Below, piece after piece: positions 18 through 11,335 of a DNA stretch of 11,335 nucleotides. The notes under the pieces were generated by a model. That model was not told where the DNA came from. It searched no databases and saw only the letters and a list, made by a program, of their open reading frames with translations. The position numbers and the translations under genes are program-made. Positions within the stretch are counted from its first letter, which is position 1; every line of letters begins with the position of its first letter. Origin of the DNA: a bacterium (Candidatus Gribaldobacteria) CG10_big_fil_rev_8_21_14_0_10_41_12 (GTDB lineage Bacteria; Patescibacteriota; Minisyncoccia; Minisyncoccales; CG1-02-41-26); NCBI GenBank assembly GCA_002773545.1, contig PFAV01000013.1, positions 1,630 through 12,964 on the forward strand, written 5' to 3'.

Positions 18-3000
18 ATGGAAAATAATTTTGTCGTAAACGAACATAAAACTTTGAAGTTTTGGGAGGGGATGGGGTTGTTGGGTAAGATAAAAGAAAA
101 AAATAAAAACGGTCAGCCGTGGAGTTTTTTAGATGGGCCGATTACCGCCAATAATCCCATGGGTGCGCACCACGCTTGGGGCAGGACATTGAAGGATTTG
201 TTTCAACGCTTTAAGGCCATGCAGGGCTATAAGCAAAGATTACAGAACGGCTTTGATTGCCAAGGGCTTTGGGTAGAGGTAGAGGTGGAAAAAGAGCTGG
301 GTTTTAAGAGCAAAAAAGATATTGAAACATACGGCATTGAGAAGTTTGTCAATAAATGCAAAGAACGGGCGCACAAATACTCTAAAATTCAAACCCAGCA
401 GTCCATTCGGCTGGGTATGTTGCGTGATTGGGGTAACTGGCAAACCGAGTTTGACGAAAAGGGTGAGTGGATTAAACAGAGCCATTCTTACTATACTTTG
501 TCAGACGAGAACAACTACGCAATTTGGCATTTTTTGAAAATTTGCCATGAAAAAAGTTTTTTGTATAAAGGCCACGATGTGGTGGCTTGGTGTCCAAGGT
601 GCGGCACAGCCATTAGTCAGCACGAAATTTTAACCGAAGAATACAAGGAGATAACCCACCAAGCCATTTATTTTAAGTTGCCGGTGGTGGGCGAAGATAA
701 AACATATTTTTTGGCCTGGACAACCACACCCTGGACTTTGCCTGGTAATGTTTTTCTATCGGCGCACCCAGACCTGATTTATGCCAAAGTTAAAGCTAAC
801 AATGGCGATATTTATATTTTATTAAAAGACAAAGCCGATTTAATTGAAGGGGGCGAAATTATTGAAACATTTGAGGGCAAGGCGCTGGAAAATAAAACTT
901 ACACTGGCCTTTTTGGCGACTTGCCAAGTGTTGCAAGATGTGAACGATCGCTCACAGAATGCAACAGGGTGGTTTTGTGGAAAGAAGTGACCGCGGAAGA
1001 GGGCACGGGTATTGTGCATTCAGCGCCGGGGTGCGGGGCTGAAGATTTTCAGCTGGCTAAAGAAAATAAAATGCCGGTGATTGATTTAACCGACAACGAA
1101 AGCAATTACAGGGAGGGGTTTGGCGAGTTATCGGGAAAATTTGTCGGAACAGAACAGGTGAGGCAATATATTTTTAGTAATTTAGAGAGCAGGGGTTTGG
1201 TTTATAAAATTGAGGATTATCAGCACAGGTATCCAACTTGCTGGCGGTGCAAGAGCGAGCTGATTTTTCGTTTGGTTGATGAATGGTATATTTCTATGGA
1301 TAAATTGCGAGAGCCCTTGATGAAAGCGGTAGAAAAAATAAACTGGTTGCCTGGTTTTTGCAAAGAAAGAGAGGCCGACTGGTTAAAAAATATGCGCGAC
1401 TGGCTGATTTCCAAAAAGCGCTATTGGGGCTTGGCCTTGCCGATTTTTGAGTGCGAGTGTGGCAGTTTTGAGGTGATTGGGTCGTTGGAAGAATTGCAAA
1501 AGCGAGCCATTGAGGGCTGGCAGGATTTTGAGGGCCACTCGCCCCATCGGCCTTGGCTGGACGCGGTGAAAATAAAATGCGCCAAGTGCGAAAAAATTAT
1601 TTCTCGCATCATGGATGTAGGCACGCCTTGGCTGGACGCCGGGATTGTGCCGTTTTCTACTATTAGTAATGATAATCGCTCGGCAAACATTCCTTATTTT
1701 CACAACAATAAAAAAGAATGGCAAAAATGGTTTCCAGCTGAATTGGTTTGCGAGGGCTTTCCCGGCCAGTTTAAGAATTGGTTTTATGTTTTATTGGTGA
1801 TGAGCCAGGTTTTAGAGAACGAGCCGCCGTTTAAGAATTTGCTGGGCTTTGCCAATGTGGTTGATGAAAAAGGCGAGGAAATGCACAAGTCCAAGGGCAA
1901 TGCCATTTGGTTTGATGAGGCAGTAGAGAAAATTGGCGCTGATGTGATGAGGTGGATGTATGCTCTGGCTAACCCGGCCAATAACTTGAGGTTTGGCTAT
2001 GGTGTAGCCAAAGAAGTTGAAAGAAAAATCCTTACTTTAACGAATTGCTTTACTTTTTATCAGACCTATGTTTCTAATCCTGTCATTCTGAGCCAGCAGG
2101 CGAAGAATCCCGAACAAGAGACCCCTCGCTTCGCTCAGGGTGACGGGGGAAATGTTTTAGATAAATGGATTTTGAGCAGGTTAAATAATATTATTAAAGA
2201 AGTAACCGAAAGTTTGGAAAAGTTTGATTCAGTTAAGGCCAGCCAGGCGATTGAGGATTTTTGGATAAATGATTTATCCTTGTGGTATGTGCGTCGGTCC
2301 AGAAAAAGGTTTGAAGAGGCCGAGCCGACCTTTCATGATGTTTTAATAACTATTGCCAAGCTCATCGCGCCGTTTATGCCGTTTTTAGCCGAGCGAATGT
2401 ACCAAGAGTTAGCGCCCCGAGGTCTGACCCCGGGGGACTGTCGGTCTGTGCATTTATGCGATTGGCCGTTAGCTAATAAAAAAGCGATTGATGAAAAATT
2501 AGAACAAGATATGCAAGTCGTGAGAGATATTGTTTCTCTGGCGTTGGCTAAGAGAATGGATTTGAAAATCGGGGTGAGGCAAGCGTTACAAAAGTTAAAA
2601 GTTAAACCAGCCCGCATTGCTATGCAAAGCATTGCTGGCGGGAGCGCAAAGTTAAAAGTTAAAGAAGAATTATTGGATTTGATAAAAGATGAAGTTAATG
2701 TTAAAGAAGTTGTTTTTGATGAAGGCCTTGATAGCGAGGTTGAGCTGGACACTGCGATGACTGATGAATTAAAAGAAGAGGGACTTGTTCGGGAGATTAT
2801 TCGCCACATCCAGGATTTGCGCAAGAAGGCAGGGTTAACGCCGCAAGGTAAAGTGGATATTTATTTTGCCACCCAAGAAAGCTTAGCCGAAGTTATCGCT
2901 AAAAACCAAAAGCAAATTTTAGCAATCACCAAATCGCAAGCCATTCAAGAAAACTCGTCCAAGCAACCTGCCCGCAACGCTTCGCTTAGCGATGCTGTCG

Positions 3001-3104
3001 GGCCCGCCCGCAACGCTTCGCGTAGCGATGCGGGCGGGGGCGAATTTTTAGCGCAAAAAGAAGTCAAAATCAATGAAGAAACCATTTGGCTGGGTATAAA
3101 ATGA
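18..3104 (+). CDS. ileS: Isoleucine--tRNA ligase (class Ia, archaeal/eukaryal-like type), carrying in-frame repeat insertions
   Basis: Cytosolic enzyme that activates isoleucine with ATP and charges tRNA-Ile. The class I signature is the variant PMGAHHAWGR (residues 47-56), with Met-Gly-Ala-His in place of HIGH. The KMSKS equivalent is MHKSKGN (622-628). Cys pairs typical of zinc sites occur at 192/195, 408/411, 479/481 and 521/524. The editing domain lies between the two signatures, with the conserved stretch GTGIVHSAPGCGAEDF near 330. The anticodon-binding domain follows LDKWILSRL (about 711-720). At 1028 aa the length is normal to slightly long, and part of it comes from repeat-derived inserts at about residues 304-317, 688-711, 864-882 and 984-1008. 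The C-terminus (EVKINEETIWLGIK) is intact after the last insert. The ATG at 18 has no visible Shine-Dalgarno. The gene ends in TGA. A separate promoter follows, so it is probably not cotranscribed with rpoB. Confidence 0.97.
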   Translation: MENNFVVNEHKTLKFWEGMGLLGKIKEKNKNGQPWSFLDGPITANNPMGAHHAWGRTLKDLFQRFKAMQGYKQRLQNGFDCQGLWVEVEVEKELGFKSKKDIETYGIEKFVNKCKERAHKYSKIQTQQSIRLGMLRDWGNWQTEFDEKGEWIKQSHSYYTLSDENNYAIWHFLKICHEKSFLYKGHDVVAWCPRCGTAISQHEILTEEYKEITHQAIYFKLPVVGEDKTYFLAWTTTPWTLPGNVFLSAHPDLIYAKVKANNGDIYILLKDKADLIEGGEIIETFEGKALENKTYTGLFGDLPSVARCERSLTECNRVVLWKEVTAEEGTGIVHSAPGCGAEDFQLAKENKMPVIDLTDNESNYREGFGELSGKFVGTEQVRQYIFSNLESRGLVYKIEDYQHRYPTCWRCKSELIFRLVDEWYISMDKLREPLMKAVEKINWLPGFCKEREADWLKNMRDWLISKKRYWGLALPIFECECGSFEVIGSLEELQKRAIEGWQDFEGHSPHRPWLDAVKIKCAKCEKIISRIMDVGTPWLDAGIVPFSTISNDNRSANIPYFHNNKKEWQKWFPAELVCEGFPGQFKNWFYVLLVMSQVLENEPPFKNLLGFANVVDEKGEEMHKSKGNAIWFDEAVEKIGADVMRWMYALANPANNLRFGYGVAKEVERKILTLTNCFTFYQTYVSNPVILSQQAKNPEQETPRFAQGDGGNVLDKWILSRLNNIIKEVTESLEKFDSVKASQAIEDFWINDLSLWYVRRSRKRFEEAEPTFHDVLITIAKLIAPFMPFLAERMYQELAPRGLTPGDCRSVHLCDWPLANKKAIDEKLEQDMQVVRDIVSLALAKRMDLKIGVRQALQKLKVKPARIAMQSIAGGSAKLKVKEELLDLIKDEVNVKEVVFDEGLDSEVELDTAMTDELKEEGLVREIIRHIQDLRKKAGLTPQGKVDIYFATQESLAEVIAKNQKQILAITKSQAIQENSSKQPARNASLSDAVGPARNASRSDAGGGEFLAQKEVKINEETIWLGIK
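929..966. repeat. 38-bp palindrome inside ileS
   Basis: By hand count 15 of 19 positions pair. The outer arms TGTTGCA/TGCAACA are perfect, TGTGA/TCACA forms an inner block, and the centre is CGATCG. It is translated in frame as VARCERSLTECNR between DLPS and VVLWKEV, a loop where IleRS homologues as I know them are usually shorter. It is probably an inserted palindromic element of a different family from those further downstream. No clear target duplication is visible, so a chance palindrome is not excluded. Confidence 0.55.
2079..2150. repeat. 72-bp inverted-repeat element inserted in frame in ileS
   Basis: The arms at 2082-2093 (GTCATTCTGAGC) and 2133-2144 (GCTCAGGGTGAC) pair over 12 positions, counting two T-G pairs. 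GAAGAATCCC and CCCCTCGCTTC lie inside. The trinucleotide AAT stands on both sides (2076-2078 and 2151-2153), consistent with a 3-bp target duplication. Removing 75 bp gives YVSN-VLDKWILSRL, the usual junction before the anticodon-binding domain. The element is translated as about 24 residues from PVILSQQAKNPE to AQGDGG. The motif CATTCTGAGC...GAAGAATC resembles a dispersed intergenic repeat common in several bacterial phyla. Confidence 0.75.
2419..2448. repeat. Possible 30-bp GC-rich repeat insert in ileS
   Basis: This stretch is GC-rich compared with its surroundings. It is centred on CCCCGGGG, with GGTCTG repeated directly at 2421-2426 and 2443-2448. It encodes about ten residues (RGLTPGDCRS) between MYQELAP and VHLCDWP, where family members usually go almost directly into the VHL-DWP motif. 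It looks like another repeat-derived insert, but pairing is poor and no duplication is visible. Confidence 0.35.
2591..2663. repeat. 36-bp palindromic element flanked by 16-bp direct repeats, in frame in ileS
   Basis: The palindrome at 2607-2642 has a 15-bp arm, a 6-nt loop and a 15-bp arm, with 12 of 15 positions pairing. It reads PARIAMQSIAGG. An exact 16-bp direct repeat (AAAGTTAAAAGTTAAA) lies at 2591-2606 and 2648-2663, so KLKVK is duplicated on either side. Deleting 57 bp (19 codons) restores QKLKVKEELLDLIKDEVNVKEV, which fits the IleRS C-terminal region. It belongs to the same family as the two copies at 2967-3038. Confidence 0.8.
2967..3038. repeat. Two tandem copies of a 36-bp palindromic element near the 3' end of ileS
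   Basis: Copy A is 2967-3002 and copy B is 3003-3038, directly abutting. Each has a 15-bp arm, a 6-nt loop and a 15-bp arm. Pairing is 11 of 15 in A and 14 of 15 in B. Both start on a codon boundary and encode PARNASLSDAVG and PARNASRSDAGG. They lie between AIQENSSKQ and EFLAQKEVKINEETIWLGIK, in a surface-type C-terminal extension. Copy B, with the best arms, is probably the younger or least decayed one. Confidence 0.85.
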
Positions 3105-10497: not shown

Positions 10498-10525
10498 AGT
10501 GTAGCAAAAATATCAGTTATGTCAA
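10498..10525 (-). promoter_or_regulatory. Minus-strand promoter for the tRNA-like gene
   Basis: On the minus strand, TTGACA (10520-10525) and TACACT (10498-10503) are separated by 16 nt, the same spacing as the rpoB promoter. The predicted start is near 10490, giving a leader of about 100 nt containing the 10418-10455 hairpin before the tRNA-like gene. An alternative weak -10 (TAAAAT) lies just upstream of the gene, near 10400. Confidence 0.5.
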
Positions 10526-10533
10526 GGTGTCGC

Positions 10534-10542
10534 TGTGGATAA
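10534..10542 (-). promoter_or_regulatory. Perfect DnaA box 1
   Basis: TGTGGATAA on the plus strand, which is TTATCCACA on the minus strand: the exact consensus 9-mer bound by DnaA. It is one of a pair 65 bp apart in the same orientation, in an otherwise gene-free AT-rich stretch. Confidence 0.55.
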
Positions 10543-10598
10543 AACCCTTAGCCACTAAATATAACCCCTGGTTACCTTTGCGGATTTTTATTTTCACC

Positions 10599-10607
10599 TG
10601 TGGATAA
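10599..10607 (-). promoter_or_regulatory. Perfect DnaA box 2
   Basis: Second exact TTATCCACA on the minus strand. The 56 bp between the boxes are AT-rich and hold no obvious gene. The pair could regulate a neighbouring promoter, titrate DnaA, or mark part of an origin. No dnaA gene is in the window to support an origin call. Confidence 0.55.
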
Positions 10608-10615
10608 CTCGTGTC

Positions 10616-10643
10616 TTGTTTTCTAATTCTGTTCTATTACAAT
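10616..10643 (+). promoter_or_regulatory. Candidate promoter for the GIY-YIG gene (and possibly lexA)
   Basis: TTGTTT (10616-10621), 16-nt spacer, TACAAT (10638-10643). The predicted start near 10650 would place the palindrome at 10652-10691 at the very 5' end of the transcript, about 85 nt before the original GIY-YIG ATG at 10736. Moderate match only. Confidence 0.4.
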
Positions 10644-10651
10644 AAATGAGA

Positions 10652-10691
10652 GCTTAACGAAAACGAGCCGAAGGCGAAGTTTGAGTTTAGC
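10652..10691. repeat. Imperfect palindrome upstream of the GIY-YIG gene
   Basis: GCTTAACGAAAAC and GTTTGAGTTTAGC form imperfect outer arms (10 of 13 pair), with GCC-GAA-GGC at the centre. It is a further intergenic palindromic repeat, possibly another dispersed family. Pairing is too loose for a confident hairpin and no target duplication was found. Confidence 0.4.
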
Positions 10692-10745
10692 ACGAATTTA
10701 CCCCATGAAGTAATTTTAAATTTTCAGCAAAGATTATGTTTTATT

Positions 10746-11183
10746 ATGTCTGAGATGGTTGCAAAACTATTCCTGCTGCAATTTTATCTTTTCGGCTGCG
10801 TCATCGTCAGACTTCGCAAAATGCTTTTCGCCGTAGCTGGGCTACGGCCTCAAAACATTTTGCTCGTCTTCCTCGCCTCGCTCGAAAATCTAAAATTTCG
10901 CTACGAAATAGTTTTGCAACCATCTCTCTATGTTCTGCTTTCTGAAAAAGACAAAAAGCTCTATGTTGGCTATACTGAAAATTTAAAATTAAGATTTGAG
11001 GCGCGCCAGAAGGAACGCATAACTTCGACTAAGGATAGAAGACCGTTTCAGCTAATTTATTCTGAAGTTTGTCTTGACCGCAAAGACGCTATGCATAGAG
11101 AAAAATATCTAAAAACATCTTATGGCAAAGCATTTTTAAGAAGCCGCCTCAAATCTTACTTCACGGGGTGTAAGAACTCGTAA
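10746..11183 (+). CDS. GIY-YIG nuclease-domain protein with N-terminus disrupted by a palindromic element
   Basis: Residues 62-145 of this frame are a small single-domain GIY-YIG protein of the UPF0213-like kind. They show YVLLSEKDKKLYVGYT (the GIY and YIG strands), the following Arg (LKLRF), STKDRRPFQLIYSE and the catalytic-type Glu in HREKYLK. Residues 1-61 are translation of the inserted palindrome and have no relation to the family. The ancestral gene probably started at the ATG at 10736 (MFYYV), which now runs into TGA at 10751. The ATG at 10746 happens to be in frame with the rest, so a 145-aa chimera is possible. Otherwise this is a pseudogene. The usual EH after LKxRF is AR here, a missing conserved His. 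Small GIY-YIG proteins are often of unknown role; DNA cleavage or repair is inferred from the fold only. Confidence 0.75.
   Translation: MSEMVAKLFLLQFYLFGCVIVRLRKMLFAVAGLRPQNILLVFLASLENLKFRYEIVLQPSLYVLLSEKDKKLYVGYTENLKLRFEARQKERITSTKDRRPFQLIYSEVCLDRKDAMHREKYLKTSYGKAFLRSRLKSYFTGCKNS
10752..10926. mobile_element. 175-bp palindromic, MITE-like element inserted at the start of the GIY-YIG gene
   Basis: The ends at 10752-10771 and 10907-10926 are perfect 20-bp inverted repeats (outer bases GAGATGGTTGCAAAACTATT). The middle is a perfect GCCGTAG-CTGGG-CTACGGC hairpin (10830-10848), and the arms between are imperfectly complementary, so the whole element is one palindrome centred on 10839. TCT stands on both sides (10749-10751 and 10927-10929) as a 3-bp target duplication. 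Excising 178 bp joins ATG-TTT-TAT-TAT-GTC to TAT-GTT-CTG, restoring MFYYVYVLLSEKD, a normal GIY-YIG N-terminus. It encodes no transposase, so if mobile it would need one in trans. Confidence 0.8.
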
Positions 11184-11187
11184 GTTC
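11174..11187. promoter_or_regulatory. Candidate LexA operator upstream of lexA
   Basis: GAACT-CGTA-AGTTC, a perfect 5-bp inverted repeat with 4-nt spacer. It overlaps the GIY-YIG stop codon and ends 25 bp before the lexA ATG. It recalls Gram-positive LexA sites built from GAAC/GTTC half-sites, but the GAAC to GTTC spacing is 6 rather than 4. It may instead belong to another dispersed repeat, since the sequence around it (11167-11200) is also partly self-complementary. Confidence 0.4.
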
Positions 11188-11212
11188 GCTTCACTCACTA
11201 ACGATTTCTAAC

Positions 11213-11335
11213 ATGTCTACACTAACATTAAAACAAAAAAAGATTTTGGATTACCTCCAGGCCTACTCGCAAAAAAACGGCTATAGCCCTTCACACGAAG
11301 AGATGAGAAAGCATTTTAAGCTGGCTTCGGTTTCT
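11213..11335 (+). CDS. lexA: LexA repressor, N-terminal part (truncated by window end)
   Basis: SOS-response repressor that binds operator DNA as a dimer and is inactivated by RecA-stimulated self-cleavage. Only 41 codons are visible. LTLKQKKILDYLQAY, then NGYSPSHEEMRKHFKLASVS, match the LexA winged-helix DNA-binding domain (the L-T-x-x-Q-x-x-I-L pattern, then G-x-x-P-S-x-x-E). The Ser/Lys peptidase domain lies beyond the window. The ATG at 11213 has no Shine-Dalgarno. The inverted repeat at 11174-11187 may allow self-repression. It starts 29 bp after the GIY-YIG stop on the same strand. Confidence 0.88.
   Translation, partial: MSTLTLKQKKILDYLQAYSQKNGYSPSHEEMRKHFKLASVS

Follow-up and report, generated by a model that had tools for sequence, protein, structure and literature searches.

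Several palindromic repeats described in bacteria invite comparison with the present locus. A review names AT-rich targets and stem-loop transcripts as typical features of bacterial MITEs, and describes the Rickettsia palindromic elements (RPEs) as ~150-bp palindromes that can lie within protein genes and the Correia and ERIC elements as palindromes with hairpin-forming transcripts, with RNase III cleavage reported for Correia (PMC10969869). The 175-bp element studied here is a MITE, i.e. a short mobile element lacking a transposase gene, and its family is a new member of this already known type. It resembles the IS5-related bacterial MITEs in being short and palindromic and in having terminal inverted repeats, short target duplications and many copies; it departs from them in that the searches described below revealed no parent IS sharing its ends, that its stem covaries along the length across genera, and that its host is an uncultured member of the Patescibacteria with a small genome. 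With Correia and ERIC it shares the palindromic build, a likeness at the level of described features. Unlike the RPEs, which insert in frame and join the protein, it lengthens the gene by 178 bp and thereby causes a frameshift, and its family was shown inside genes in 3 of the 21 copies readable on both sides. A literature search, with most subscription journals outside its scope, returned no report of MITEs in Patescibacteria among the matches listed.

The window, i.e. the whole analysed stretch of 11,335 nucleotides, covers positions 1630–12964 of contig C56 in the Candidatus Gribaldobacteria genome G000 and carries ileS-like, rpoB-like and rpoC-like genes followed by a small GIY-YIG gene and a LexA-like gene (the ileS, rpoB, rpoC and LexA names come from reading the translations). 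An earlier note, made from the sequence alone, had described an insertion with perfect 20-bp ends and a TCT duplication at the start of the GIY-YIG gene, and both features were confirmed (Table 1). The 20-nt arms, with ends GAGATGGTTGCAAAACTA and first bases GAGAT, are 100% complementary; of the 25 longest among the 68 inverted repeats shown for the window, no other pair is perfect. Folded alone, the element gave a single long imperfect hairpin with z = −9.6 under DNA and −9.3 under RNA parameters, and 0 of 200 shuffles were as good in each case. Terminal inverted repeats, a target-site duplication, a short body without a transposase gene and multiple dispersed copies are thus all present, as in a MITE. 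The element had no match in phage and plasmid collections, and no terminator-like site was detected in 10500–11335. Elsewhere in the window, two adjacent 36-bp units, 89% alike and partly inverted relative to each other, were observed at 2967–3038, towards the 3′-end of the ileS-like gene, and a third unit, 72% alike, at 2607–2642.

Table 1. Coordinates of the inserted element and of the gene that it interrupts, given in positions of the window
Feature	Positions	Strand	Basis or remark
MITE, 175 bp, non-autonomous and palindromic	10752..10926	+	perfect arms, genome copies, conserved hairpin
Left 20-bp terminal inverted repeat	10752..10771	+	first 18 bp have 81 exact occurrences in own genome G000
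Right 20-bp terminal inverted repeat	10907..10926	-	inverted-repeat listing
Target-site duplication TCT, left copy	10749..10751	.	read from sequence
Target-site duplication TCT, right copy	10927..10929	.	read from sequence
Central hairpin of element, 8-bp stem and 3-nt loop in window copy	10830..10848	+	fold; helix 7, both-side changes in 5 of 7 pairs
5′ piece of interrupted GIY-YIG gene	10736..10751	+	now reads MFYYV-stop
3′ piece of interrupted GIY-YIG gene, PF01541	10930..11183	+	E 1.4e-12, profile search on 145-aa ORF
145-aa ORF running through element (mechanical ORF)	10746..11183	+	ORF listing, codon tests

At present, the frame of ATG 10736 holds five codons and then a stop. When the flanks were joined by script with one TCT kept, an 89-aa ORF starting MFYYVYVLLSEKD was obtained, and homologues in relatives carry this uninterrupted form: those in G022, G023 and G003 start with MFYYI or MYFYI, continue with YVLLSEKD or a closely similar sequence and have no insert, the G005 homologue reads MFHYVYILQSKRD at its N-terminus, and a third G023 copy (L188) is without an N-terminus of the MFYYI/MYFYI type altogether. 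The earlier view that excision restores the family N-terminus was thereby upheld, and the extension made by the insertion, which in relatives would have spoken against it, was found in none of the homologues read. A GIY-YIG homologue was matched at E ≤ 1e-5 in 10 of 24 family genomes, G000 counted; in G003 a LexA-like gene also lies downstream of it, with a different upstream neighbour. No homologue was detected at this threshold in G001 and G002, the other two genomes of the genus, so the empty site of the GIY-YIG locus is unseen within the genus. As a separate observation, the gene itself (10640–11212; L174, L175, L184, L176) looks like a dispersed cassette, namely with conserved 5′ leader and 3′ tail and differing neighbours; leader and tail hold the inverted stretches ACCCCRTGAAGTAA / TTACTTCACRGGGT, G022 has a pair of almost identical copies next to each other, and G023 has three matches.

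The exact 18-bp end occurred 81 times in G000, compared with none for the backward control pattern, and hence the absence of other copies of the ends, which the earlier note had named as possible counter-evidence, did not come up. The 81 ends comprise 14 two-ended copies, 36 ends on elements truncated by the end of a contig and 17 single ends in contig interiors. They correspond to 49 to 67 exact-ended copies, a range given because a pair of contig-end halves may derive from one and the same copy; diverged copies that lack exact ends come on top. Among the full-length matches, eight (the window copy counted) were 99–100% identical to the window copy and the others 86–92%, some lowered by N gaps, and these identity classes suggest, as judged from the sequences, at least two waves. 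A 3-bp duplication, for which the earlier note had proposed to search in other copies, flanks 16 of the 21 copies readable on both sides, while ~2.3% is expected for each copy by chance and shifted positions gave 0 to 3 of 21. Of the five copies without a duplication, L024, L025 and L026 are diverged, L016 contains an N gap, and L013 is almost identical to the window copy. ATT or AAT was read at 50 of the 81 ends, two-ended copies being counted on both sides; the TCT target of the window copy lies off this preference.

Insertion inside a gene was demonstrable for the GIY-YIG gene, L045 and L014, and the L011 copy may sit in the end of another ORF. At L045 (403–1243) an MvaI/BcnI-type restriction endonuclease gene of G000 is split, both pieces matching PF15515; this copy holds an N gap, so the frame of the insertion is unreadable. 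The L014 copy, in the opposite orientation to the window copy, interrupts a gene without a Pfam match; G002 has an uninterrupted relative of this gene, with 95% identity across 119 aa. The joined flanks of L014 also aligned to the same-genus G002 in one block with 27 mismatches in 210 bp, which is a precise empty site. The empty site looked for in sister genomes was therefore found at L014 and not at the GIY-YIG locus.

The conservation of the hairpin was assessed on elements of 170–180 bp that were N-free and had recognisable ends (28 of 30 occurrences, 25 distinct sequences), identical copies being counted once and two 163-bp elements omitted. Across the 25 distinct copies of 174–176 bp, 96.8% of cells were pairing versus 91.8 (sd 0.3) after shuffling, and both-side changes were found in 28 of 58 hairpin pairs versus 9.2 (sd 1.9), with 0 of 500 shuffles as high and only 3–6 such pairs for slid partners; these controls are not clean probabilities, because descent and transposition link the copies to one another and the structure was itself derived from this alignment. 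On these alignments, either the folded strand would matter or the palindromes would correct themselves, and the covariation fits both. Template-directed correction of imperfect palindromes alters both arms together, and the covariation that it leaves would look identical to that observed; it is possible, if somewhat unlikely, that such correction during replication of the MITE, and not selection on the folded strand, produced the paired changes, since internal-loop columns such as 21–28 opposite 152–160 are conserved yet non-complementary and correction alone would tend to erase them. This alternative concerns the hairpin alone. Selection has its own, unlikely but worth stating, version, namely that the element is a long-lived mobile hairpin and more than decayed IS debris, whose fold would have been maintained in Patescibacteria of several genera and families, perhaps for transposition or for a host role of the folded single strand or its RNA, before a recent burst to ~1 copy per 11–15 kb in a small genome. 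Strong folding and covariation would also suit a palindrome that is not mobile at all and instead belongs to the GIY-YIG cassette itself or acts as an ancestral regulatory RNA, a reading we regard as extremely improbable given the many other sites with 3-bp duplications, the lack of the palindrome in the GIY-YIG homologues read, the empty site of L014 in G002, and the absence of any match to Rfam covariance models up to E = 1 in 10500–11335.

The earlier note had further stated that the element is open in one frame with the host ATG at 10746, and had supposed a new 61-residue N-terminal extension. The 145-aa ORF does exist, replacing the first 5 residues by 61, and its openness is modestly unusual: when the bases were shuffled, frame 0 stayed open in 6.7% of cases and one or more forward frames in 20%, and the window copy has two open forward frames, a state reached by 0.9% of shuffles. 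A useful extension was not supported. For frame 0 the nonsynonymous/synonymous ratio came to 1.0 among the 18 copies whose length is exactly 175 bp and to 1.03 in the alignment of 25 copies, in which the changes at codon positions 1, 2 and 3 numbered 200, 160 and 115, the fewest at position 3 and thus the opposite of a coding frame, and a coding meaning of frame 0 was rejected on these codon counts. Frame 0 is open in 15 of the 25 distinct copies and has stops in 10. The ratio was lower in frame 1 (0.5 in the 18 copies and 0.43 in the alignment), which is not taken as coding because it has three stops in the window copy; the low value is perhaps an effect of the hairpin pairing. That the insertion, as with the RPEs, gave rise to a functional GIY-YIG protein with an extended N-terminus is very unlikely: the frame is open from an in-frame ATG through the element and the GIY-YIG domain still scores over profile positions 3–74 of 78, whereas the 175 bp plus the 3-bp duplication shift the reading frame, frame 0 is without codon constraint and stopped in many copies, and the L014 copy leaves no fused ORF. 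An RPE-like in-frame insertion was rejected on two of these grounds, the 178 bp added at the GIY-YIG gene and the interruption at L014. With a codon ratio of ~1.0 and an open frame in 15 of 25 copies, the 145-aa ORF, which depends on a chance ATG and one orientation, is probably a by-product, an accident rather than a new function.

Beyond the host genome, copies of 174–176 bp were found in other genera and in at least one other family. The element end, with one mismatch allowed, was present in 9 of 247 genomes of the order, and in named genomes 17 stretches matched it exactly, some of them in unrelated bacteria and without a second end. Both ends lay 175–176 bp apart in 8 of the 17, all Patescibacteria records, i.e. 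two Ca. Gribaldobacteria LacPavin_0419 bins (five stretches), GW2011_GWA2_38_13b, NC_groundwater_405 and RA.bin35. Viral contigs yielded one match to the end, with the second end absent. Very short versions were also seen, a 34-bp back-to-back pair of ends in a named bacterial bin (L158:2308–2341) and one of 49 bp in G001 (L117:475–523). Another family of the order (G185, G186) holds related elements with ends GAGATGGTTGCAAAACTC, of which L131 and L132 are 163 bp long with 3-bp duplications, and L140 has a wider pair of these ends.

A transposase with ends matching the 20-bp terminus, for which the earlier note had proposed to look, was not found among three transposase families, PF01609, PF13359 and PF13586 (DDE_Tnp_1, DDE_Tnp_4 and DDE_Tnp_1_2), or by end searches. 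No element combining the exact MITE ends with a transposase was detected by end spacing in G000, the 17 named stretches and the fetched transposase loci, where a MITE near one locus was the sole exact-end occurrence, and no partner with the same ends emerged from end searches of family, order, viral and genome collections together with flank checks; a full-length partner could have been lost because the assembly breaks within repeats. The C65 transposase of G000 was rejected as a partner, its nearest model being IS701, below the cut-off, and MITE ends being absent. G000 also has an IS5-like copy on C53, which begins AGACCTGTTGCATAATAAC and is truncated by a gap and by the end of the contig.

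IS5-like transposases (HTH_Tnp_4, DDE_Tnp_4) are present in some related genomes, with DDE_Tnp_4 matches in 7 of 246 order genomes and 14 of 383 class genomes; they match NCBIfam IS5 models below the cut-offs of these, and we presume them to be of the ISL2 group. A script over 35 transposase loci, some representing the same place, listed six distinct IS5-like elements of 0.8–1.1 kb with AGAC-type ends and the duplications AAT, ATT, ATT, ACT, TAT and ATA; paired ends and an identical 3-bp flank were required, so the listing shows that such elements exist and not how many lack a duplication. The 9-bp core GTTGCAAAA is the best part seen in common between the MITE and IS5-like ends, and its offset is equal in the two: it is contained in both ends of the G003 element (AGACCTGTTGCAAAATAA) and in one end of that of G089. 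A 3-bp duplication with an ANT-type target is a feature of the IS5 (ISL2-like) group, and the MITE shares both (ATT/AAT at 50 of 81 ends). End identity with an IS5-family element was not observed, as the first bases differ, AGAC in the IS5-like ends and GAGAT in the MITE. Shared core and target preference are, at the level of sequence, suggestive of a link between the MITE and IS5-like elements, not proof of it.

Taken together, the insertion reading is well supported by the other copies with 3-bp duplications, the uninterrupted homologues and the one empty site elsewhere. Very probably, a MITE of a Patescibacteria family (Ca. Gribaldobacteria and relatives), moved in trans by an IS5-family transposase, went through a burst and hit the GIY-YIG gene, leaving the long ORF as a by-product. 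In this scheme a DDE transposase of the HTH_Tnp_4 plus DDE_Tnp_4, ISL2-like type, supplied in trans, would bind the inverted ends and insert the 175-bp unit at AT-rich targets of 3 bp, ATT/AAT in most cases; the host lineage would recently have undergone a burst that produced about 50–70 copies. One of these would have landed in the first codons of the small GIY-YIG gene, with inactivation or weakening of the gene as the most likely result, and the 145-aa frame would follow from orientation and a chance ATG. The covarying hairpin poses the question of whether a folded strand is selected in a MITE or palindromes are self-correcting. Patescibacteria are usually regarded as streamlined. The burst of the element, with 36 contig-end halves at assembly break points, accounts for part of the assembly fragmentation and points to active mobile DNA in a small Patescibacteria genome.
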